Source of the DNA: Dendronalium phyllosphericum CENA369
GTDB taxonomy: Bacteria > Cyanobacteriota > Cyanobacteriia > Cyanobacteriales > Nostocaceae
Reading direction: 5' to 3'
DNA length: 64,000 nucleotides
Assembly (NCBI RefSeq): GCF_016056275.1
Contig: NZ_JAECZA010000289.1
Coordinates: 151,984-215,983 of the forward strand
Positions 12,352 through 24,350 of this stretch are shown in pieces (position 1 is the first letter of the stretch; each line of letters starts with the position of its first letter). Made by a program: the position numbers and the translations under genes. The notes under the pieces are model-generated. The model saw only the letters and a program-made list of their open reading frames with translations. It had not been told where the DNA came from and did no database searches.

Positions 12352-13197
12352 TCAACTATGAAACGGAATCACCAGTAATGGCACAAGCACCAAAATTAAC
12401 CACACCCAAGACCAAGGTTTTGGTGTTCCCATAGAATTTGGTTCTTGCAAAAGTGCATCTATTCTCTGTGTAACATGATTGGTTGAGATATGCTGGGCAA
12501 AAGCTGCACAAAAATTTGACTCTAGTAAAACTGGAGTATTGACAACCAATAGTAAAGCTTCTGCTAATAACAAACTATCAACTTGTCTAGCAGCCCAATA
12601 ATCAGCCCGTATCTCTCTTAAAAGTAACAACTCTTGCCATAATGATTCGGTGTGAGGTAGCCAAGAGGTTAACTGACGTAGCCACCCCAAAAAGAAAAAC
12701 CAACAGGTATCGTGGTAGTGGCGATGTCCATCTTCATGGGCTAATACCGCTTTGAGATGGACGGAATCTAAGGTATCTAATAATCCCTGACTGATAATTA
12801 ACTCAGGTTTCCAAAAACCAACCAAAGCACAATAAACAACAGGCACATTTAGTAACCGTGCTGGTGTACCGTAGACATAAATTATGGGATAGGTGCGAAT
12901 TTGTTTTAGCATCCGGTTTCCCTCCCATACCAACTTTAGCCATAAGACACCTGCAAAACCTAAGAAACTGATGGCCAGTCCGTAGCTAACCCAACCTTCC
13001 CACCCCCAAACCATAATATGTCCATGAGGCCCCATACAAAACACTGCAAATGTTGTGGTTAATAGAAGTAATGGCGGGAGGAGAAATAGCAACAAGGCGC
13101 GGGGAAAACGTTCCATCCAATTTCCTATAGGGGATGACCACTGACTTCTCAAGTACCAAGCTAGGATTAACGCCATGACTACCATCAGCAGGTGCAT
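12352..13197 (-). CDS. petP: M56-family membrane metalloprotease (BlaR/PetP-like)
   Basis: This 281-residue protein has hydrophobic segments at residues 1-15, 34-54, 66-86 and at the C-terminus, with the cytoplasmic zinc-protease motif HEDGH near residue 153 followed by an E-x-RAD-x-WA segment. It lacks the penicillin-sensor domain of BlaR1. It abuts a BlaI-type repressor gene, so it very probably inactivates that repressor by proteolysis. In Synechocystis the equivalent pair is PetR/PetP, which controls the copper-dependent cytochrome c6/plastocyanin switch; assignment here is by family and gene order. The divergent oxidase operon is a likely target. Confidence 0.8.
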   Translation of the reverse strand: MHLLMVVMALILAWYLRSQWSSPIGNWMERFPRALLLFLLPPLLLLTTTFAVFCMGPHGHIMVWGWEGWVSYGLAISFLGFAGVLWLKLVWEGNRMLKQIRTYPIIYVYGTPARLLNVPVVYCALVGFWKPELIISQGLLDTLDSVHLKAVLAHEDGHRHYHDTCWFFFLGWLRQLTSWLPHTESLWQELLLLREIRADYWAARQVDSLLLAEALLLVVNTPVLLESNFCAAFAQHISTNHVTQRIDALLQEPNSMGTPKPWSWVWLILVLVPLLVIPFHS

Positions 13198-13616
13198 TAT
13201 TCTTTCTCCCTAAGTTCACGAACTGCTTGGATTTTTTTTGCGATCGCCTCAAACTGTGCCACACTAGCTTCATCCAGACTGTCAGCAAAAGCAGCCACAA
13301 TCTCCGGCTTCCCCAATTCGAGAAATCTCTGTAACTGTTCATAAGCTTCTAAAGACTGGGCTTCTGAATAAGAAATCAAAGGTAGCCAAAGATACTGGCG
13401 GTGTTGTTTCACACATTCTAGCCACCCCTTCTTGGAGAGGCGATGCAGTATTGTTGCTACTGAGGAATAAGTTAACTCCCGTTCTGGGTCAGCAGTAATA
13501 CGTTCATGCACCTCTTTAACTGTGGCAGCACTCAGAGAGTAAATAATGTTTAAAATCTCTGCCTCTAAAGGGCCTAATTTTAGTTGTTTGGGACGGTAAT
13601 TTGGCAGAGGATTCAT
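13197..13616 (-). CDS. petR: BlaI/MecI/CopY-family transcriptional regulator (PetR-like)
   Basis: This 139-residue protein has the winged-helix domain of the Penicillinase_R family: LGPLEAEILNIIYSL, TVKEVHERI, and YSSVATILHRLSKKGWL as recognition helix and wing. The C-terminal helices (EIVAAFADSLDEASV) serve dimerisation. It overlaps the protease gene by one base, so the pair is translated together. Two GACA-N3-TGTC boxes lie about 80-115 bp upstream of its start, which suggests autoregulation. The neighbouring oxidase operon carries the same paired boxes. It is called PetR-like because of the M56 partner and overall similarity from memory. Confidence 0.8.
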   Translation of the reverse strand: MNPLPNYRPKQLKLGPLEAEILNIIYSLSAATVKEVHERITADPERELTYSSVATILHRLSKKGWLECVKQHRQYLWLPLISYSEAQSLEAYEQLQRFLELGKPEIVAAFADSLDEASVAQFEAIAKKIQAVRELREKE

Positions 13617-13696: not shown

Positions 13697-13730
13697 GACA
13701 AGTTGTCAGATTCAAGTCTGACAACTTGTC
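13697..13730. promoter_or_regulatory. Paired GACA-N3-TGTC operators in front of petR-like gene
   Basis: GACA-AGT-TGTC occupies 13697-13707 and GACA-ACT-TGTC occupies 13720-13730, with starts 23 bp apart (about two helical turns). Both are perfect inverted half-sites, as expected for a dimeric BlaI/CopY-type repressor. The identical arrangement recurs at 14248-14281. Confidence 0.7.
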
Positions 13731-13778
13731 TTTTGACATTTCTCACCAACTGACTTAAGGTCGGAGGGGATTTTTAGC

Positions 13779-13870
13779 AGGACTTACGCAAAATTATGAA
13801 AAAACGAACCGCAAAGGGCGCAAAAAACACGAAGTTATAAGAGTTTCAGAGAGTTCTTGCGTAAGTCCTA
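13779..13870. repeat. 92-bp MITE with terminal inverted repeats and 6-bp target duplication
   Basis: AGGACTTACGCAA at 13779-13791 is inverted as TTGCGTAAGTCCT at 13857-13869. The direct repeat TTTAGC flanks both ends (13773-13778 and 13871-13876). The interior carries a dispersed motif like ACGAACCGCAAAGGGCGCAA. It sits between the two operator pairs. Confidence 0.7.
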
Positions 13871-14247
13871 TTTAGCATCAGTTAGCTACTCTTTTACCAC
13901 CTAAAAATCACTGTTTAGGCAGCAGGAGAGCCGAAATCACATCAGTAATCTTACACTGATAAGGGAGTAATTAGAATCTTGATTAAACCTCCAAGTATCC
14001 ATAAGTTAAGGAATATGTGGATTGTGGCTCAATTAATAAAACTTACCAGATATTCAATATTTTTTGAGCAAATAATCATCTTTATACCAGATTATTTAAA
14101 ACCAATATCAAGTAGTTTATCTATTTTATAGTGATATTTTTCTCAATGTCACAAGATAGACTGTCAAACAATTTTAGGTTTGGGATTGTGGATTAAAGCC
14201 AAGGATAAATAAGTAAATTTATCCTGTTAAACAACAATAAGTCAAAA

Positions 14248-14281
14248 GACAGTTTGTCGTTTTAATCTCTGACATTTTGTC
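14248..14281. promoter_or_regulatory. Paired GACA-N3-TGTC operators in front of the oxidase operon
   Basis: GACA-GTT-TGTC lies at 14248-14258 and GACA-TTT-TGTC at 14271-14281, again 23 bp apart, about 120-150 bp before the first gene. A weaker copy (GATA-GAC-TGTC) lies at 14155-14165. The match in sequence and spacing to the petR-like promoter indicates control by that regulator. Confidence 0.7.
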
Positions 14282-14401: not shown

Positions 14402-14902
14402 ATGTTTGAATATCTTCCACCTTTGAACGACCACAACTTACCTTACCCAGATACAATCCATCCGATTGTTGTCCACTTCGTAATTGCAATGGTATTGTTT
14501 GCCTTCTTCTGTGATGTAGTTGGTTATTTTAGCCATAACGCCCGTCTTTTTGAAGTGAGTTGGTGGAATATGTTTTTCGCCACGATCGCCATTTTTATTG
14601 CGATCATCTTTGGTCAGATTGAAGCGGGTTTAGCCGAACCTTACAACGCAGTTGAACCAATCCTAAATTTACATACCCTGATTGGCTGGTCGCTTTCAGG
14701 AATTATTGCCGCAATTACAGGGTGGCGTTACGTCATTCGGTTACGTGACCCAGAAAAAGTACCAGTTCCCTATCTCGGAGTGGGACTACTTTTAACTTGT
14801 TTAGTGTTCTTCCAAGTGTATTTGGGAGATGAATTAGTGTGGGTGTATGGACTGCACACAGTACCAGTTGTAGAAGCTGTGAAGGCAGGTATTTTGCGAT
14901 GA
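14402..14902 (+). CDS. DUF2231 membrane protein of the oxidase operon (first copy)
   Basis: This 166-residue protein has four predicted membrane helices and begins with the HPIVVHFVIAM motif of DUF2231. I chose the ATG at 14402, which has AGGA about 7 bases upstream; the frame extends to 14357 without a signal. It overlaps the next gene by 4 bp (ATGA). As I recall, two such proteins precede coxBAC in the cox3 operon of Anabaena PCC 7120. The conserved histidines suggest heme or redox binding, but the function is unknown. Confidence 0.8.
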   Translation: MFEYLPPLNDHNLPYPDTIHPIVVHFVIAMVLFAFFCDVVGYFSHNARLFEVSWWNMFFATIAIFIAIIFGQIEAGLAEPYNAVEPILNLHTLIGWSLSGIIAAITGWRYVIRLRDPEKVPVPYLGVGLLLTCLVFFQVYLGDELVWVYGLHTVPVVEAVKAGILR

Positions 14903-15504
14903 ATGCCCAACTAATTGAACAACTCAGGTCGCAACTAGGCGCAAACGGACTACCTTACACCATTCCCATTCATCCCAACTTAGTCCATCTCACCTTGGGT
15001 TTATTTATCGTCGCCATTGCCTTTGATATTGTTGGTGTACTATTCCCCCTAGAAAAACCAGTCTTCAAATTTTTGGCAATACCCGCTAATCGTGCCGGCT
15101 TCTTTGATGTGGGTTGGTACAATATGCTGGCTTCAGCCATCATCACCTTTTTCACTGTGGCCGCAGGCTTTTACGAAATCATGTTGGCAGAACCACCAAC
15201 AGATTTAAAAAGTGCTTGGGGATTACAAGGGATGGAGACAATGCTGTGGCATGGTGTCGGTGGTGTCCTCCTCTTAGCGCTGATTATTGGAATGGCTGTA
15301 TGGAGAGGATTTCAGCGTTATTTATGGCGAAAAGATGTCGGTCAACAAGTGCAGTGGAGTTATCTTGCAGCAGGGTTTTTCATCATGTTTATTATGTTCG
15401 TTCACGGCACATTAGGAGCGCAACTAGCGGCAGAATTTGGCGTACATAATACTGCTGATAAATTACTGAGATTGGGTAAAGACATTAACGCGGTATTGAA
15501 GTAA
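14899..15504 (+). CDS. DUF2231 membrane protein of the oxidase operon (second copy)
   Basis: The 201-residue protein starts at ATG 14899 within the stop of the first copy. It shows IPIHPNLVHLTLGLFIVAIAFDIVG at the start of a four-helix DUF2231 domain and a LWHGVGGVLLLALI helix with a conserved His. It is related to the preceding protein (both carry HP-x-x-VH) and ends directly in front of coxB. It probably assembles with, or delivers electrons to, the alternative oxidase; this is inferred from gene order. Confidence 0.8.
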   Translation: MNAQLIEQLRSQLGANGLPYTIPIHPNLVHLTLGLFIVAIAFDIVGVLFPLEKPVFKFLAIPANRAGFFDVGWYNMLASAIITFFTVAAGFYEIMLAEPPTDLKSAWGLQGMETMLWHGVGGVLLLALIIGMAVWRGFQRYLWRKDVGQQVQWSYLAAGFFIMFIMFVHGTLGAQLAAEFGVHNTADKLLRLGKDINAVLK

Positions 15505-16428
15505 ATGAAAATTCAGAATATTTTGATTTTAATTGGCTGTGCGATCGCCCTCACAGCTGCTAGTCTCTGGATGGGAGAACAAGCCTATTCCTGGTTTCCC
15601 CCCCAAGCCGCCGCCGAATCCAAACTCATAGATGAACTATTTAGCTTTTTAGTCACCTTGGGAACCTTCATTTTCTTAGGCGTAACTGGAACCGTCATCT
15701 ATTCCATAATTTTCCATCGCGCAGGTAAATATGACACCAGCGATGGCCCGCCAATTGAAGGAAATGTCACCTTAGAAGTAGTTTGGACAACAATTCCCAT
15801 TCTGTTGGTGCTATGGATTGCAACCTACAGTTACAACATCTATGCAGAAATGGCAATTCAAGGGCCAATGGAAGCCATGCACATACATAAAATGGCATCA
15901 GCCCATGCAGCAACAATGGAGGAGAAGGGGACATTTTCAATCACCGCCTCTAACTCCATACCAGTTGAAAAAATAGAAGTGCTTGCCAAACAATGGGCTT
16001 GGGTCTTTCGCTACCCCAACCAGAATGTTACCAGCACCGAATTACATCTACCAGCTAATCGGCGCGTTAGTTTAGCACTGCGATCGGCAGACGTTCTCCA
16101 CGGCTTTTACATCCCAGCCTTTCGACTCAAACAAGACATAGTACCCAAACAAACCATCGACTTTGAATTTACTCCCATTCGCCCCGGCAAATATCGACTG
16201 CGCGATTCTCAATTTAGCGGTACTTACTTTGCAGCCATGCAAGCAGATGTAGTAGTCGAATCAACAGCAGATTACGACCAATGGCTGAAATTAGCTGCAA
16301 CCCAAAAACCAGTCCCCGCCAATAATCAAGCCGCCAACGAATACGCCCAAAAAATCAAAGGGGCATTCACCACAGGCTATCCCACAGTCATACCCGCACC
16401 ACCCCCTTTAGTCAATTTCTCCTCTTAA
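15505..16428 (+). CDS. coxB: Cytochrome oxidase subunit II lacking CuA ligands (alternative oxidase, CoxB-type)
   Basis: This 307-residue subunit II has a signal-anchor helix, a second helix (FSFLVTLGTFIFLGVTGTVI) and the periplasmic cupredoxin domain (WAWVFRYPNQN, VLHGFYIPAFRLKQD). Where CuA oxidases have C-S-E-L-C-G-x-x-H-x-x-M, this protein reads D-S-Q-F-S-G-T-Y-F-A-A-M. Both cysteines, the Glu and the His are gone. It therefore cannot bind CuA, and the complex probably takes electrons from quinol or another donor, as proposed for cyanobacterial ARTO/Cox3. It starts at the base after the upstream stop codon. Confidence 0.92.
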   Translation: MKIQNILILIGCAIALTAASLWMGEQAYSWFPPQAAAESKLIDELFSFLVTLGTFIFLGVTGTVIYSIIFHRAGKYDTSDGPPIEGNVTLEVVWTTIPILLVLWIATYSYNIYAEMAIQGPMEAMHIHKMASAHAATMEEKGTFSITASNSIPVEKIEVLAKQWAWVFRYPNQNVTSTELHLPANRRVSLALRSADVLHGFYIPAFRLKQDIVPKQTIDFEFTPIRPGKYRLRDSQFSGTYFAAMQADVVVESTADYDQWLKLAATQKPVPANNQAANEYAQKIKGAFTTGYPTVIPAPPPLVNFSS

Positions 16429-16471
16429 ACTCAATTTCTCTGCGCCTCTGCGCCTCTGCGTGAAACATCCT

Positions 16472-18154
16472 ATGACAAATACCCAAATCGAAAATCCCAA
16501 AATACTACTAGAAACACACCACCATCTCCCCACCACCTGGAAAACCTACTTCACCTTCAGCACTGACCACAAAGTCATCGGTATTCAATATATAGTTACC
16601 TCCTTTCTCTTTTTCCTCATTGGCGGCATATTGGCAATGATTATTCGCGGCGAACTAATTACCCCAGAAGCCGATTTAGTTGACCGCACCGTTTACAATG
16701 CCATGTTCACCATGCACGGCACAATCATGCTGTTCTTGTGGACTTTTCCCGTCTTAGTTGGTCTAGCAAACTACCTTGTCCCGCTTATGATTGGGGCGCG
16801 AGATATGGCATTTCCCCGCCTGAATGCCGTAGCCTTCTGGATGGTGCCAGTATTCGGAATTATCCTGATGGCTAGTTTCTTCCTACCCGGTGGCCCAGCC
16901 CAAGCAGGTTGGTGGTCTTATCCCCCAGTGAGTCTGCAAAATCCTACAGGTAATCTCATTAACGGTCAATTTCTCTGGCTGATAGCTGTCGCCATATCAG
17001 GTGTATCCTCGATTATGGGCGGTGTTAATTTTGTTACTACCATTGTTAAAATGCGCGCCCCAGGAATGACCTTCTTTCGGATGCCGGCTTATGTTTGGGC
17101 AGTGTTCAGCGCCCAGATTATCCAACTGTTTGGCTTACCTGCACTCACAGCCGGGGCTGTTATGTTGTTACTCGACTTGACTATTGGTACAGCCTTCTTT
17201 GACCCAGCAAAGGGCGGTAATGCAGTTCTCTTTCAACACTTTTTCTGGTTTTATTCACACCCTGCCGTCTACGTAATTATACTACCTATTTTTGGCATTT
17301 TTTCCGAAATATTCCCAGTTTATAGCCGTAAACCTCTGTTTGGCTACAAGGTAGTTGCCGTTTCCTCACTATTGATTGCCGGCGTAAGTGGTTTTGTCTG
17401 GGTACATCACATGTTTGCTAGTGGTACACCAGCCTGGATGCGGATAGTTTTCATGGTTTCCACAATGTTCGTTTCCGTACCCACGGGGATTAAAGTTTTT
17501 GCTTGGGTGGCGACAATTTGGGGAGGTAAACTGCGGCTGACTACCCCGATGCTGTTTGCTTTGGGTGGATTGATTATGTTTGTGTTTGCGGGTATCACAG
17601 GCATTATGCTTTCCGCAGTACCAATTGATATTCACGTTAATAATACCTACTTTGTTGTGGGTCACTTTCATTACGTCCTCTATGGGACTGTGACAATGGG
17701 GATGTTTGCCGCATTTTATCACTGGTTTCCCAAGATGACTGGGCGGATGTACTACGAAGGCTTAGGTAAGCTGCATTTTTGGTTATCATTCATCGGTACT
17801 AACCTCAACTTTTTACCGATGCACCCATTAGGTTTGCAAGGGATGTTGCGGCGGGTTTCTTCTTACGACCCAGAGTATGCTTTTTGGAATGTGATTGCTA
17901 GTATTGGTGGATTTTTGTTGGGGATGTCTACACTACCCTTTATTTTGAACATGATTGGTTCTTGGGTACAGGGTGAGAAAGCACCGGATAATCCTTGGCG
18001 GGCTATTGGGTTGGAGTGGCTGGTGGCTTCTCCGCCGCCGGTGGAGAATTTTGAGGAGATTCCTGTGGTGATTTCTGAACCTTATGGGTATGGGAAGTCT
18101 GAACCGTTGACGGCGAATTTGGAAAAGCAAGAGTTAGCAAGAGATTTGAATTAA
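16472..18154 (+). CDS. coxA: Cytochrome oxidase subunit I (alternative oxidase, CoxA-type)
   Basis: This subunit I of about 560 residues has all heme and CuB ligands: MHGTIM (heme a His), WFYSHPAVY (CuB His and cross-linked Tyr), HHMFASG, and GHFHYVLYG (both axial hemes). The usual HPEVY Glu of the D channel is Ala (HPAVY). ATG 16472 was preferred over an in-frame GTG at 16460; neither has a good ribosome site. The spacer before it holds the dispersed repeat CTCTGCGCCTCTGCGTGA. It reduces O2 to water in thylakoid or plasma membrane and forms a unit with coxB and coxC. Confidence 0.95.
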   Translation: MTNTQIENPKILLETHHHLPTTWKTYFTFSTDHKVIGIQYIVTSFLFFLIGGILAMIIRGELITPEADLVDRTVYNAMFTMHGTIMLFLWTFPVLVGLANYLVPLMIGARDMAFPRLNAVAFWMVPVFGIILMASFFLPGGPAQAGWWSYPPVSLQNPTGNLINGQFLWLIAVAISGVSSIMGGVNFVTTIVKMRAPGMTFFRMPAYVWAVFSAQIIQLFGLPALTAGAVMLLLDLTIGTAFFDPAKGGNAVLFQHFFWFYSHPAVYVIILPIFGIFSEIFPVYSRKPLFGYKVVAVSSLLIAGVSGFVWVHHMFASGTPAWMRIVFMVSTMFVSVPTGIKVFAWVATIWGGKLRLTTPMLFALGGLIMFVFAGITGIMLSAVPIDIHVNNTYFVVGHFHYVLYGTVTMGMFAAFYHWFPKMTGRMYYEGLGKLHFWLSFIGTNLNFLPMHPLGLQGMLRRVSSYDPEYAFWNVIASIGGFLLGMSTLPFILNMIGSWVQGEKAPDNPWRAIGLEWLVASPPPVENFEEIPVVISEPYGYGKSEPLTANLEKQELARDLN

Positions 18155-18275: not shown

Positions 18276-18929
18276 ATGACTGTGAATAGTTCTATTAGTC
18301 GAGAAGAGTTGCAGGAGTCTTTGGAGACGAGGACTGTTGAACATACTCATGATGAAGAAGCCAATAGTATGTTTGGCTTTATCGTATTTTTACTTTCGGA
18401 AAGTATCATTTTTCTGAGTTTTTTTGCGGGATATATTGTTTATAAAACCACAACTCCTGATTGGCTACCGCCTGGTGTTGAGGGGCTGGAAATTAGGGAA
18501 CCGACAATTAATACTGTGATTCTGGTTTCTAGTAGTTTTGTGATTTATTTCGCGGAACTTGCCCTGAAACGCCATAATATGTGGGGATTCCGCCTACTTT
18601 GGTTAACAACAATGGCGATGGGTAGCTACTTCTTATATGGTCAAGCAGTTGAATGGAGTAGTCTGCATTTTAGTGTGACATCTGGCGTATTCGGGGGAAT
18701 GTTTTATCTATTAACAGGATTCCACGGGTTGCACGTTTTTACTGGTGTGTTGTTGCAGTTAATTATGTTAGTGCGATCGCTCATCCCCGGTAATGCAGCA
18801 ATTTTCTCCCCAAAGAAGAAGAAAATTGGAGTGTTGTTGAAGTCTTTAAAAAAGAACGTTATCACACTCAAGAACAATGGTACGACAGCGCCGGCGAACC
18901 TTTTCGTCCCCAAATTAACTATTGGGTAG
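18276..18929 (+). pseudogene. coxC: Cytochrome oxidase subunit III, 3'-truncated and joined to a GMC oxidoreductase
   Basis: The frame holds a normal CoxC for about 174 residues: SMFGFIVFLLSESIIFLSFF, six helices, and FYLLTGFHGLHVFTGVLLQL. Just after LIPGN (about 18797) the similarity stops, and 40 unrelated, Lys-rich residues follow, read out of frame from the gene behind. The last membrane helix of subunit III, which usually ends with a WHFVD-type segment, is missing. A deletion joining this gene to the GMC gene best explains it. The truncated subunit might still assemble. Confidence 0.85.
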
Positions 18930-20233
18930 GCGGAAATACAAAAGTATATGGTGCAGCACTGTTGCGGATGCGGGAACGGGATTTTCAAGAAGTCAAACAT
19001 CAAGATGGGGTTTCAAGTGAGTGGCCTTTGAAATACCAAGACTTTGAACCCTATTACACCGAAGCGGAAAAACTCTACCATGTCCACGGTAAACTAGGGG
19101 ATGACCCAACAGAACCACCCCGCAGCGAAACTTATCCTTATGCAGAAGTAAGTCACGAAGCGCGGATGCAAACAATTGCTCATGCTATCTCCCAACAAGG
19201 GCTACATCCAACACATCTACCTTTAGCACTCAAGAGTGATTGTATCCGATGTCATACTTGCGATGGTTTCCCTTGTAAAATAGATGCGAAAGCTGATGCT
19301 GAGACTGTGGGAATTAACCCAGCTTTGTCACATTCTAACGTCACCTTAAAAACCTCAGCTAAGGTTGTGCGTTTACACACTAACCCATCTGGTATTGAGG
19401 TGAAAGCTGTGGAAGCGGAAATAGATGGACAATCTTATCTATTTTTCGCAGATATATTCGTCCTAGCTTGTGGTGCGGTAAATTCGGCGGCGTTGTTATT
19501 ACGTTCTGCAAATGATAAACACTCCAAGGGACTTGCTAATAGTTCTGATTTGGTGGGACGTAATTTTATGAAACATCTGATGACGGCGATGGTACAACTC
19601 AGCCCCATACCAAACCCGACTGTGTTTCAGAAAACAATTGCTGTGAATGATTTTTATTGGGGAGAATCAGAGTTTCCTTTCCCAATGGGTCATATTCAAA
19701 ATACAGGTAGTATTTTACAAGAAATGATTCCCGCAGAAGCATCGCCTTTGTTATCGCTAATGTCCAGGTTAGTTCCTGGGTTTGGAATGCGACAGTTAGC
19801 GAATCATTCTATTGGTTGGTGGTTACAAACGGAAGATTTACCTGACCCAAAAAATCGGGTGCGGGTTGTGGGTGATAAGTTGTATTTGGATTATACGCCC
19901 AATAATATTGAAGCACACGATCGCCTGATTTATCGCTGGACTAATATCCTTAAGGCTGTAGATCGCTCTTCGGAAAACCCGGTGTTTCGTCGCGGGATTT
20001 ATCCCCGTAGTGATAGCCCGATTCAAGTGGTGGCGAATCAGTGCGGTACTTGTCGGTTTGGGGAAGATGCGACTACATCTGTGCTTGACCTTGATTGTCG
20101 CACCCATGATGTGAATAATCTCTATGTTGTTGATGGTAGTTTCTTCCCGTCTAACTCTGGGGTGAGTCCAGCTTTAACTATTATTGCCAATGCGTTGCGA
20201 GTTGGAAATCATCTGATTCAACGATTGCATTAA
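18800..20233 (+). pseudogene. GMC-family oxidoreductase, 5'-truncated
   Basis: From the join onward one frame reads NFLPKEEENWSVVEVF and FRPQINYWVGGNTKVYGAAL, typical for the GMC flavoprotein family after its first 60-70 residues. It continues to the C-terminal NLYVVDGSFFPSNSGVSPALT with the conserved His/Asn region replaced by this SNSGVSPALT form. The N-terminal FAD-binding GxGxxG and the start codon are absent. An internal ATG at 18962 would give 423 residues, but without the nucleotide-binding fold. It is therefore probably inactive. Confidence 0.82.
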
Positions 20234-20297
20234 TATGATATTGGCTTGAAGCGAATATAATTTTTATTATTACTTGACAAGTATGAAAATGTCAAAA

Positions 20298-20308
20298 GAC
20301 AAGCTGTC
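20298..20308. promoter_or_regulatory. GACA-N3-TGTC operator copy
   Basis: GACA-AGC-TGTC is preceded by TGTCAAAA, as in the two strong copies at 13720 and 14248. A half-match (GACAAGTATGA) lies 22 bp before it at 20276. No intact gene with a matching promoter follows directly; the nearest plus-strand gene is the CsoR-like one. Confidence 0.5.
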
Positions 20309-20439: not shown

Positions 20440-20637
20440 TTAAGCTTTACCTGCTTCTAATAAAGATTGACCGAGATAACCACCCTTTGCCTCAACTCCT
20501 GGTAAGGCAAAGAAATATCCGCCGCCAATCGGTTTAATATACTCTTCTAAAGGTTCTCCATTTAAGCGTGATTGAACTGTAATAAAACCCTTTTCTAAAT
20601 TTGACTGGAAACAAACAAACAGCAGTCCCATATCTAG
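20440..20637 (-). pseudogene. C-terminal fragment of a Dyp-type peroxidase
   Basis: About 65 residues read [29 protein letters not shown] and [11 protein letters not shown], the characteristic end of Dyp-type heme peroxidases. The catalytic part with GxxDG and the heme His is absent. The fragment stops where the CsoR-like gene begins on the opposite strand, so this is a deletion join. Confidence 0.75.
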
Positions 20638-20900
20638 GTGAAGCATCTTTAAATGATTTGATGAAACGATTGTCTCGTATTGAAGGGCATATTCGGGGTA
20701 TCAAGAATATGGTTGAGGATAGTCGTCCTTGTCCAGATGTATTGATTAAAATAGCTGCTGTCCGAGGAGCAGTTAAGCAAGTTGGTCGAATTATTTTAAA
20801 TGAATATCTCAAGGAATCCGTTGCTCGAACTACTCAACAGGAAGATGTTAAAACTGAGATTGAAGCTCTAAAGATTGTATTAGATCGTTTTTTAAGCTAG
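20601..20900 (+). CDS. CsoR/FrmR-family metal-sensing repressor, N-terminus joined to foreign DNA
   Basis: The recognisable domain runs from about 20643 to the end: [48 protein letters not shown]. The first 14 codons of the frame are antisense to the Dyp fragment, so the original start may be lost; ATG at 20661 is an alternative. CsoR binds Cu(I) with Cys-His-Cys. Here the first Cys is kept (RPCPD), but the next two ligands appear as Tyr and Ser (EYLKES instead of EHLxxC). Either it no longer senses copper or it senses something else. Confidence 0.75.
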
Positions 20901-21593: not shown

Positions 21594-23410
21594 CTAGAAC
21601 ACCGATTCAGTAATCAAATAGAAGTAGAGGCAAGCTCAGTAGTGTTGGTAAAAATTTTGGCAAGGACATGAAGATTATGAACAACGGCTACGCGACGAAG
21701 GTCAAATAAGTTTTTACGAGAACCGACATAACGAGCCTGCTGTGATTGCCAATGACCAATATGAGATAAAGAATGCTCAACACAAACACGTTCTCGGAGT
21801 TTGGCACGACCTATTGGAGTTAGTTGACGTTCTCGTAATTCCCGAAACAATAGCTCTTGTGGATGAATTGAAATACTGCGTCCGCGTGGAGAGGTGGTGC
21901 AAGATTCCCTAACAGGACAAGTTGCACAAACCTCCTGTGGAAACTGGACTTTAGCACCCAAAGTAAAAGGTAAAGTTACTTGATTGGGACAACAAATAGT
22001 ACCATTGTCCCAATCCAATACAAACGCAGTTTTCGCAAATTTTGTACCGTTGTGGACGATCCAAGCCTTACAATATATACTCAATTGCTCACTGCGATTT
22101 TTGACTAAGGAGCTACTCAAATAAGCCCGGTCAATATGTAATTCGCTGAGTTCGACATCTTGTGTTTGTAAGTCCTGAGTAATCGCATCAGTTACAGATG
22201 CTTCTGGGAGATTAGCCTTGGTAATCCCAACAGCACGAATCATTCCATTGTCTAAATCTCGTAAAACATGACGTTTATATCCATCAATCTTCTGACTACG
22301 ACTTTTACGCCCATGTCTCATCTGTTCGTCTTCGATTGAGATGCGCCGTTCTTTAGCAACACCAGAGCGCAGTTTCACCTCACCATGTTCGGAGATTTCT
22401 ACATCCTGTGTTTCGATTTGTCGTGCTGTCTCAAGAGTTGCACGAAGTAGCGGATGTTCAGATTCTGTGGGGTGTGTTTGAACAAAAGTATCGAGTCGCT
22501 CTAAAGCATCCAGTACAATCCCCAAAGCTAAATTTTTCTGGTCTGGGTCATCCCAGTTTAAGTCTAAAGCCGCTTTTAAGCTTGAAGTGGCGACTATACC
22601 CACGCCAATATCATTAGCAACTTCCGCCAACTCCCACAAGGTGCTGGCTAGCTATCACGCCAATCGCTTTTTTGAGCGCGTGACCCAACAAATTATATGT
22701 ATCTTCGACCTTCGATGCTCCCCACAATGGACTTGAATCAAGTGCAGCTCGTAATTGCCTTGAGCCAAAACCCTTTGTCTGCTCTGCTAGTTCTACTGTT
22801 CGCTCAATTAGCCTACGGTCAAGACCTTGGATAATTAGCGCTGTGCGAAATCTCGCCAGTGTCGCCTGAGAAAATGGTGCAATTTCGCAATCAATACAAT
22901 CAACTACCAATTGCCAACGTCTATCCATGAGCAATGCTTCAATTGCTTCTGCATCCGAGGCTCCTGTGTAGGCTTGCAAGATTGTCGTCAAAGCTAACTG
23001 TGCTGGTGGTACTGGCGGATGTCCTTTAGGAGAATCTGCGTATAGCTTGCTTAGTTCCTCTTGAAATTGTTCATCAAATATTTGATGACGGTATTGCCGC
23101 AAGAATGTAAATAGCTTCGCTCGTTTAATGCGCTTGACGATACTTTGCTCTTGTGATGTTAATTCTACCGATGGATGCCAAATTCCTGGTCGCATACGTA
23201 CATTTTCAGCTTGCACTAGCACAATTTATTACCTAAATCTACCCCAATCTGGGCAACACCACTCCTTGAGACTTTGTTAAATATCGCTCAAGCCTTATTT
23301 ATTGTTATAAGCATTGTTTGGTAAGCGTTTCCTCTATTTTCTCCTTTATGATTTACCTTACTCTGGGCAGATTCTTCTTTTATTCTGCGATTACTGAATC
23401 GGTGTTCTAG
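21594..23410 (-). mobile_element. IS1182-family insertion sequence (about 1.8 kb)
   Basis: Perfect 22-bp inverted repeats CTAGAACACCGATTCAGTAATC lie at 21594-21615 and 23389-23410. The outer CTAG is palindromic and may be a 4-bp target duplication, as is common for IS1182-type elements. The transposase is read on the minus strand in two frames. The element lies between the FmdE-like pseudogene and a truncated acyl-AMP ligase. Confidence 0.85.
21614..23222 (-). pseudogene. IS1182-family transposase, frameshifted
   Basis: The N-terminal 202 residues (23222-22614) hold DSPKGHPPVPPAQLALTTILQAY and LDSSPLWGASKVEDT (first catalytic Asp). The C-terminal 341 residues (22639-21614) hold GYKRHVLRD, IDRAYLSS (second Asp), a Cys-rich VCATCPVRESC segment and VCVEHSLSHI (catalytic Glu). 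The frames overlap near 22614-22639, where a one-base change would rejoin them around VGVGG/ELAEVANDIGV. The copy is probably inactive. Confidence 0.82.
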
Positions 23411-24204
23411 TAGTTGCTTTGTACCGGGAAATTAATTGTCTGTAGCCAACGTAGGGGGCGCTGTAGAAAAGCGACAGGAGGCATGAGAATACAGGGGATG
23501 CCTAAGTACAGGGGCTGAAGCATATTCCCAATCAGTCCCATATCATGAAACAGAGGCAACCAACCTACGAAGATAGTCTTTGAGCTATGCCCCATAGCCT
23601 GCTGAATTATCTGCTGGTTATGCAGAAGATTGCCATGACTAACCATTACCCCTTTAGGTGTGCCAGTGGAACCTGATGTGTATTGTAGAAAAGCTAAAGT
23701 ATCACTTCTGGGTTGAGTCTGGAACCAATTTTTTTCTAGTCCACTCTGAAGATTGTCGGTAGTTACCCACTGCATGGACTTGAGGTTTGGAGTTTGCTGC
23801 AACTGATGTTCTATCTGGGTAAGAATCTTGGTGGTTGTCAGCGCCACGGTTGCTTGTGCATCAGCTACAATAGCTTCTAATCTAGGCATGGGTCGATTCA
23901 GTCGAGGCGGATAAGCAGGGACGGCAACGACTCCAGCGTAGAGACATCCAAAAAAGGCGGCAATATATTCTAGACCTGGCGGGTACAGTAGTACAGCACG
24001 CTCCCCACTGACTAGGCAATTTTGTAGCCTTGCTGCAATAGTTCGAGCTTGACAATCGAGTTCGTGGTAAGTTATGTTTGCTTCTTCTGTTTCTCCATCA
24101 AGCAAAAAAGAATAGGCGTTCTGTTTGGGCTGTTCGCTCGCTCGAAAACGAAGAATTTCTACGAAACTGGAAAAATCAATTGGAAGCTCTAAAGGTTGAT
24201 TGCC
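23407..24204 (-). pseudogene. Fatty-acyl-AMP ligase, 3'-truncated
   Basis: About 255 N-terminal residues of a FAAL-type adenylating enzyme start at ATG 24204: ILRFRASEQPKQNAYSFL, AVLLYPPGLEYIAAFFGCLY, the P-loop YTSGSTGTPKGVMVSHG, and WLPLFHDMGLIGNMLQPLY. Similarity ends at LRWLQTI, followed by about eight unrelated residues and a stop within the IS end. The C-terminal half of the adenylation domain is missing. FAALs load fatty acids onto PKS/NRPS lines; no such line is in the window. Confidence 0.85.
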
Positions 24205-24339
24205 CATTTGTAACACCACTTACTACTTATGCTCAGTTAATTGACGAAAAAGTCATAACTGACCAAATTAGCGGCTAAAATGCTTTCTAGCACGGACACT
24301 AACTGTATATACTGAATCAAGCTGTTACCTGCGTCAAAA

Positions 24340-24350
24340 GACAAGATGTC
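24340..24350. promoter_or_regulatory. GACA-N3-TGTC operator copy
   Basis: GACA-AGA-TGTC preceded by GTCAAAA matches the extended form of the oxidase operator. It is about 136 bp upstream of the truncated acyl-AMP ligase (minus strand) and 24 bp before a 27-codon plus-strand frame at 24374 starting MADPKPFSSSDRIL. Its target is unknown. Confidence 0.45.

Follow-up and report, generated by a model that had tools for sequence, protein, structure and literature searches.

Does a copper switch of the PetR/PetP kind, which governs photosynthetic electron carriers, also govern a respiratory oxidase? The question is raised by a locus of Dendronalium phyllosphericum CENA369, within a stretch of 64,000 nucleotides that was analysed as a whole and is called the window here, in which a regulator gene and an oxidase operon diverge from one intergenic region. 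Our main reading, to which we give a probability of about 0.58, is that this region is a PetR/PetP-type control region from which the regulator would activate the oxidase operon at low copper. PetR2 and PetP2 are our labels for the oxidase-linked copies of the regulator and its protease.

The sequence-only reading of this DNA had placed four GACA-N3-TGTC palindromes in the region, the members of each pair starting 23 bp apart, and a pattern scan of the window recovered all four as exact matches (13697-13707, 13720-13730, 14248-14258 and 14271-14281). One box per pair also carries a TTTTGAC arm, which that reading had not mentioned (13731-13737 on the plus strand, 14241-14247 on the minus strand). 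Read towards the near gene, the polarity of the pair is identical at both ends, with the arm distal. The features of the region are the following:

13697..13737 (+), composite operator A: core 13697-13707, 12-bp gap, core 13720-13730, arm TTTTGAC 13731-13737
13752..13762 (+), GACTTAAGGTC, a palindrome of the GAC-N5-GTC type, conserved among aligned relatives except for one change each in G405 and G356
14123..14152 (-), promoter-like GTGACA-N18-TAAAAT directed at petR2, 10 of 12 consensus matches, equivalents in relatives
14155..14165 (-), third box, decayed in the own genome, where it reads GATAGACTGTC on the plus strand
14241..14281 (-), composite operator B: arm 14241-14247, core 14248-14258, 12-bp gap, core 14271-14281

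The palindrome GACTTAAGGTC is possibly a weak site. When this part of the window was scanned for the promoter consensus, five promoter-like sites turned up compared with 3.7 in shuffles, which is no excess. Between the two composites lies a MITE-like insert of about 90 bp (13780-13868) with inverted ends GGACTTACGCAA and TTGCGTAAGTCC, which is absent from five relatives.

The exact core occurs six times in the 64-kb window (the remaining two at 20298 and 24340) against a mean of 0.71 in 100 shuffles, none of which reached six. The looser GAC-N5-GTC was found nine times versus 6.45 expected, a count reached by 17 of 100 shuffles, and was dropped as the motif since it is not enriched in the window. 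Over all 8.38 Mb of the genome, the core by itself is rarer than its reversed control (61 versus 127); single cores therefore carry little meaning and were dropped as evidence. The 23-bp pair, with up to one mismatch, occurs at these two places alone in the 8.38-Mb genome, and its control gave none. The form of core plus arm, GACANNNTGTCWTTTGAC, has seven exact genomic copies, four of them inside the window on a stretch of 10.6 kb, and 11 copies compared with two in the control when one mismatch is permitted.

The site of Synechocystis PetR is one that we take to be of the GAC-N5-GTC type, and the identity of the boxes was judged from the genes that carry them elsewhere. The sequence TGACANNNTGTCWTTTGAC was found in 145 of the 291 genomes of the order, versus three reversed-control matches in total (counted by eye), and a stricter form gave at least 117 stretches in a scan of species genomes; among those listed, 111 are cyanobacterial by title and six are not. 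Among these 117 matches listed, the arm is directed at the nearest gene where this is petJ-like (25 stretches, all 25 with the C-x2-C-H haem motif), a DsbD_2-type membrane protein (18), a TonB receptor (12, in clusters of eight and four), a GLTT/His-rich protein (seven) or a PepSY_TM protein (four). It is directed away from an unnamed 261-aa family in 11, from petE in six (five in a common region with petJ) and from PetR in four (three in a common region with petJ), with the Pfam names of all nearest-gene clusters based on one member each. A TATAAT-like hexamer (at least 4/6) stands at 17-bp spacing from the arm in 55 of 113 boxes listed (shuffle mean 10.4, maximum 22) and at spacings of 16-18 in 82 of 113, versus 15-37 for twelve other offsets, the six non-cyanobacterial stretches having been left out of this count beforehand. 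By these counts, the TTTTGAC arm acts like a -35 element. At petE the core stands bare, 72-78 bp upstream of the gene, in 25 of the 27 family loci whose frame could be read (3 of 30 loci, in which no frame was found, were left out). Taken together, the arm/-10 and petE counts indicate that a core abutting a -35 element marks petJ-like promoters, which are presumably activated, and that a bare core marks petE in the family. Because the core precedes petE, and the core with a -35-like arm precedes petJ-like genes, the boxes are, by sequence, of the operator type found at petE and petJ, i.e. PetR-type, and the sequence-only assignment to a PetR kind of operator is upheld to that extent.

In the own genome, extended boxes stand upstream of one petJ (exact), another petJ (one mismatch) and two genes that look TonB-receptor-like by inspection. 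A small RNA was considered for the 11 stretches lacking a near gene and rejected: the nine inspected had no obvious common product, and the box precedes the 261-aa protein. This family, which gave no Pfam match, occurs at L106, L119, L124, L140, L141, L146, L165, L167, L172, L176 and L204, and a similar protein lies near a one-mismatch box of the own genome (L228).

The regulator side of the locus consists of two genes:

12352..13197 (-), petP2: PetP-like membrane metalloprotease, 281 aa, HEDGH (HExxH) motif
13197..13616 (-), petR2: BlaI/Penicillinase_R family, 139 aa, Pfam PF03965 E 7e-26

The Pfam match bears out the BlaI-type repressor proposed earlier; the best NCBIfam match of PetR2 is CopY_TcrY (38.7 bits, under the cut-off of 121.95). 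For the protease, proposed to be of the M56 family, the motif and the likeness to PetP agree with a membrane metalloprotease, but Pfam points marginally to M48 instead (E 2.1e-4), the NCBIfam search gave no match, and no sensor domain was found in its 281 residues. The own genome holds three BlaI-family loci: canonical PetR with PetP on contig C321, a second PetR without PetP on contig C163, which adjoins petJ and a TPR protein gene downstream of an NRPS gene, and the window copy. Identity between PetP2 and the own canonical PetP is 45%. The proposed likeness to PetR/PetP thus holds, albeit not as the canonical copy: in a 50-row tree, which does not include Synechocystis Slr0240, the window PetR groups with the copies of G359, G405, G412 and G478 (83/83), apart from canonical PetR. 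This group and the second PetR of G341 fall together (100/93), though G341 is marked in the tree as a long branch whose position is uncertain. PetR copies without PetP form a separate group (100/98). We classify the window pair as a paralogue of the canonical cyanobacterial PetR/PetP.

PetR was found in 118 of 118 genomes of one family sample, with two or more matches in six of them; the window PetR has a close orthologue in one of the 117 other genomes (G359, 91%). PetP-less PetR paralogues also adjoin transport genes that appear CbiQ/CbiM-like by inspection (L066 9667-10914, L067 9239-11853). No box was seen in the 400 bp upstream of canonical petR on C321, and autoregulation of canonical petR through an exact box was discarded with 0 of 28 canonical loci carrying one (best-scoring loci, 3.0-3.4 kb each). 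The motif search suggested for petJ, petE and petR was positive for the first two and gave no exact box at these canonical petR loci. As all copies have a common operator, canonical PetR may also bind and act on the window boxes.

On the other side of the intergenic region lies the oxidase operon, which is followed by two further boxes:

14402..14902 (+), DUF2231 membrane protein a, Pfam PF09990 E 2.4e-42
14902..15504 (+), DUF2231 membrane protein b, Pfam PF09990 E 6.5e-39
15505..16428 (+), coxB, subunit II without CuA ligands
16460..18154 (+), coxA, subunit I, Pfam COX1 E 5.7e-160, nearly full length
18276..18929 (+), coxC, truncated: like relatives to residue 173 of about 206, then out-of-frame GMC sequence
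18797..20233 (+), GMC oxidoreductase (Pfam), without about the first 38 residues, covering residues 39-516 of its G359 counterpart
20291..20308 (-), extended box followed at 18-bp spacing by AATAAT (-10, 5/6), directed at the 3' end of the GMC gene
24333..24350 (-), another extended box, some 115 bp upstream of the AMP-binding gene fragment 23407-24219

Alignment of coxB with two CuA-type paralogues of the own genome, which have all CuA ligands, showed that their C-x3-C-x3-H is replaced by D-x3-S-x3-F, and that both cysteines, the glutamate and one histidine are gone. This agrees with the earlier claim that the oxidase needs no CuA. CoxA belongs to the heme-copper superfamily subunit I, with HPAVY and HH motifs recognised by eye. 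Passages of PMC6616624 describe the ARTO/Qox type as lacking CuA and keeping CuB, and bd oxidase as lacking copper. Since the window enzyme is without CuA and its family keeps CuB, it is predicted to save copper and not to avoid it; judged by its sequence, "no CuA needed" is right for it and "no copper needed" is wrong.

The gene order DUF2231-DUF2231-coxBAC was read correctly before, with the exception that coxC is not intact. Compared with G359, about 0.36 kb are deleted from coxC residue 173 to GMC residue 39; the coxC frame continues in G359, G412 and G478 and spans 206 aa in G412. The island may be decaying in the own strain. A CsoR-family gene lies near the operon (Pfam, comparison with relatives), and a C-terminal remnant of a Dyp-type peroxidase at 20443-20900 (66 residues, 95% to G359) overlaps its start. 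The box at 20291-20308 has a counterpart in G359 (L065 1935-1952) with no gene start nearby in either genome, and could possibly serve an antisense or small RNA. The AMP-binding 5' part at 23407-24219 is FAAL-like by inspection and ends near a transposase-like region (21614-23222).

Genes for cydAB are absent from the own operon. The single cydA of the own genome, on contig C90, has no box at its locus, and the own bd oxidase was dropped as a target. Likewise, no exact box was found within 600 bp of the three other cox3 operons of the own genome, and cox3 operons in general were dropped. Upstream of cox3-type operons, the proposed motif search gave boxes in relatives carrying the island and in Pseudanabaena frigida. 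In P. frigida an extended box about 250 bp upstream is directed at a cox3-type operon, with no PetR within 8 kb.

The exact pair is present in two of the 291 genomes of the order, the own genome and G129; in the latter, which belongs to a different family, a 23-bp paired box with arm precedes a histidine-rich, secreted-looking protein (L034 1501-1534). The composite of core-N12-core-arm, with up to two mismatches, was found in 12 of 217 family genomes and never with the reversed control, and eight of the 12 are of the petR2/oxidase kind. Ten of the 12 were inspected (G362 and G299, with two mismatches each, were left out), among them G336, with a single box and a poor second core before petJ, and G441, where the reference set named no neighbour. 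Facing composites between an intact petR2-petP2 pair and an oxidase operon occur in five of 217 family genomes (own, G359, G405, G412 and G478). The sequence-only reading had named absence of paired boxes at orthologous promoters as the outcome that would speak against it, and relatives do carry them. Both cores of composite A are exact in G359, G405 and G412, and one or both are imperfect in G478 and G356. The equivalent of the third box is exact and armed in G359, G405, G412 and G478; in G405 and G412, where the intervening stretch is missing, it serves as the armed member of composite B with the 23-bp step retained. Because the intergenic regions of these relatives are alike throughout, box conservation among them is weak evidence.

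It could be argued that the boxes are no operators and that the pair on the petR2 side folds as a terminator-like hairpin or repeats by chance. Positions 13697-13730 do form 14 pairs around a 6-base loop, and a scan calls them terminator-like (one found versus 0.4 in shuffles). The tail AAAGTTATTT, however, has no plain T-run, both cores are intact in G405 and G412 although the surrounding arms no longer match, and the composites exceed their control as given above, with the same box at petJ and petE. We consider this explanation extremely improbable and dropped it.

The composites are accompanied by a characteristic set of genes, with neighbours counted as matches above 35% identity or at E below 1e-20 (L282 was inspected separately owing to its length). 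Of the four relatives with facing composites, three keep coxBAC and two of these have cydAB after it, in the one-strand order DUF2231-DUF2231-coxB-coxA-coxC-GMC-cydA-cydB (G412 and G478). The third, G359, holds cox3 and GMC with no cydAB within 20 kb, and the fourth, G405, has DUF2231 followed by cydA-cydB, the GMC gene being present only as scraps. Beyond petP2 lies petJ in G359, G405 and G412, with an NRPS gene past petJ in G359 and G405; in G478 that side holds a TonB receptor that has a box of its own. A composite with one and two mismatches, respectively, precedes cydAB in G442 and G452, with no petR2 within 20 kb; in G356 the composites are imperfect, petJ is present, and a petR2 match of 17 residues sits close to the end of a contig. 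In G341, a related petR-petP pair lies among bd, cbb3 and receptor genes (cydA, ccoN-ccoO and a TonB receptor), with boxes directed at cydA, ccoN and the TonB receptor from 86-136 bp. Those box neighbours to which a name could be given belong to respiration and metal uptake.

NRPS and petJ genes stand together at L013 2480-11518 (own genome G000, C163), L065 11631-16300 and L280 2655-8331, two of the three with a TPR gene, and C163 also holds a PetP-less PetR and genes labelled Fec-type transport by inspection. These NRPS-petJ loci look metallophore-like and have petJ behind a box of the PetR type.

The common operator, the paralogous pair, the facing composites and the partner genes support a link between a PetR-like regulator and copper-sparing oxidases. 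The arrangement is, as far as sequence comparison goes, real and conserved in a few relatives. The earlier suggestion of a copper-saving respiratory switch fits the partner genes (petJ, cydAB, NRPS and TonB receptors), and it has to accommodate a damaged operon and a non-canonical pair. Under the main reading, PetR2 dimers would bind both cores of each composite. With copper present, PetP2 would be activated and destroy PetR2, as reported for PetP and PetR in Synechocystis; with copper absent, PetR2 would persist and drive both petR2-petP2 and the oxidase operon, and petJ would be driven from its own box. Respiration would consequently shift to enzymes with one copper atom (the CuA-less oxidase) or none (bd). 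Leftward promoter-like elements run towards petR2 from the arms of composite B and the third box, with a best -10 of 4 or 5/6 in the own genome and four relatives, which suggests that petR2-petP2 is PetR-driven.

Activation of the oxidase operon, as opposed to its repression, is the least certain step of this mechanism. On the cox side no nearby arm is directed at the operon; the arm of composite A points there from 0.66 kb with a weak -10 (3/6). The cox-side arms point away from the genes, unlike at petJ. A strict arm-orientation rule to settle the sign of control was dropped, since each of the facing composites, pointing away from the gene next to it, is directed at the gene on the other side. 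With the arms near the oxidase genes pointing away, the same parts could work with the opposite sign: at low copper PetR2 would repress both its own gene and the oxidase operon, and added copper would lift the repression, as at petE, so that the operon would serve copper sufficiency or copper stress. In all six petE loci sampled among the matches listed, five of which share a region with petJ, the arm points away from petE, the polarity seen at the window cox and petR2 genes. BlaI-family autoregulation is commonly repressive, and the CsoR-family gene nearby would also suit this alternative. These points of polarity, shared with the repressed target petE, and of usual autorepression count against the main reading, as do the rarity of the arrangement, the missing boxes at the three other cox3 operons and the cydA locus, the broken coxC and GMC genes and the decayed third box of the own genome. 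Repression at low copper nevertheless has to explain why the cores of composite B lie 121-154 bp upstream of the DUF2231 start, compared with 72-78 bp from the ATG for the bare core at petE; if the promoter is near the gene, this greater distance fits upstream activation better than a roadblock. Moreover, cydAB is copper-free and stands close to petJ and a TonB receptor, both with boxes directed at them, and the oxidase boxes of G341 and P. frigida are directed at their genes. We therefore see the opposite sign as possible but rather unlikely, and activation at low copper remains our preferred reading, with which the gene content also fits.

A different cue is also conceivable, the PetR2/PetP2 subfamily sensing iron, redox state, oxygen or a metallophore while keeping the ancestral operator. 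PetP2 is, after all, only 45% identical to canonical PetP, the NRPS, Fec-type and TonB genes would suit iron too, and passages of PMC6616624 tie Cox3 and bd oxidases to heterocysts and microaerobic growth. Against this, the operator is that of the copper switch, and petJ in the islands puts a haem protein in place of a copper protein, a change without advantage under iron starvation; we regard a non-copper cue as improbable.

Returning to low-copper activation, we put at even odds the wider proposal that the locus is a copper-scarcity island of cyanobacteria in this family, in which a PetR/PetP paralogue with facing double operators controls one operon that may code for a CuA-less oxidase as well as bd, together with petJ and a metallophore-type NRPS gene or TonB receptor. 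If true, the photosynthetic carrier, terminal oxidases and metal uptake would all change over in response to one copper signal. The PetR regulon described so far, in passages of the PetR/PetP sources including PMC7896320, comprises four proteins around photosynthetic electron carriers. Our counts would likely widen it across cyanobacteria to petJ, TonB receptors, DsbD_2 and PepSY_TM membrane proteins and GLTT/His-rich proteins. According to passages of PMC7896320, PetR acts on petE and petJ by binding, as repressor of one and activator of the other, and how one regulator can do both is left open there; the promoter grammar of core plus -35 arm at petJ and bare core at family petE bears on this question. 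By sequence, a PetR-type system is tied to terminal oxidases; photosynthesis and respiration may thus be served by the same kind of copper switch in some cyanobacteria.

The earlier remark that no description of this exact arrangement was known agrees with our search, in which none was found. The literature searched, which misses most subscription papers, gave none of PetR-type control of terminal oxidases, of a BlaI regulator with a terminal oxidase, of copper with bd or ARTO in such an arrangement, or of DUF2231 with cytochrome c oxidase in cyanobacteria. Four oxidase terms were all absent from PMC8141849, and passages of PMC5295598 held nothing bearing on the arrangement. The motif string returned unrelated papers only.

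BlaI/BlaR1 and MecI/MecR1 combine a PF03965 repressor with a membrane metalloprotease and repeated dyads, whereas the 281-aa protease here is without a Pfam sensor domain, and targets and operator differ. The PetR/PetP copper switch of Synechocystis PCC 6803, for which the work of Garcia-Canas et al. 2021 is reportedly the primary study, is compared with the locus as follows. In passages of PMC7896320, PMC13421787, PMC12292863 and PMC10141476, a BlaI-family regulator adjoins a BlaR-like metalloprotease and the operator lies at petE and petJ, as here; the window differs in its paralogous pair, its composite double operators and its tie to terminal oxidases. Anabaena Cox3 (ARTO/Qox), as described in passages of PMC6616624, shares the coxBAC type, a subunit II without CuA and two DUF2231 genes preceding the operon, as they do in three other operons of the own genome. 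Its expression is described there as restricted to heterocysts and those passages name no copper regulator, whereas the window has a PetR-type pair and boxes. Mycobacterium tuberculosis meets copper limitation with a copper-binding lipopeptide (chalkophore) and a copper-free bd oxidase, according to passages of PMC12140626; organism, chemistry and regulation differ, and the cyanobacterial NRPS product may be a siderophore. In Bordetella, passages of PMC12914433 tie a TonB-dependent copper transporter to heme-copper oxidases. Set beside these systems, the locus appears to be a variant of PetR/PetP, in which the oxidase link and the composite double operators would be new.
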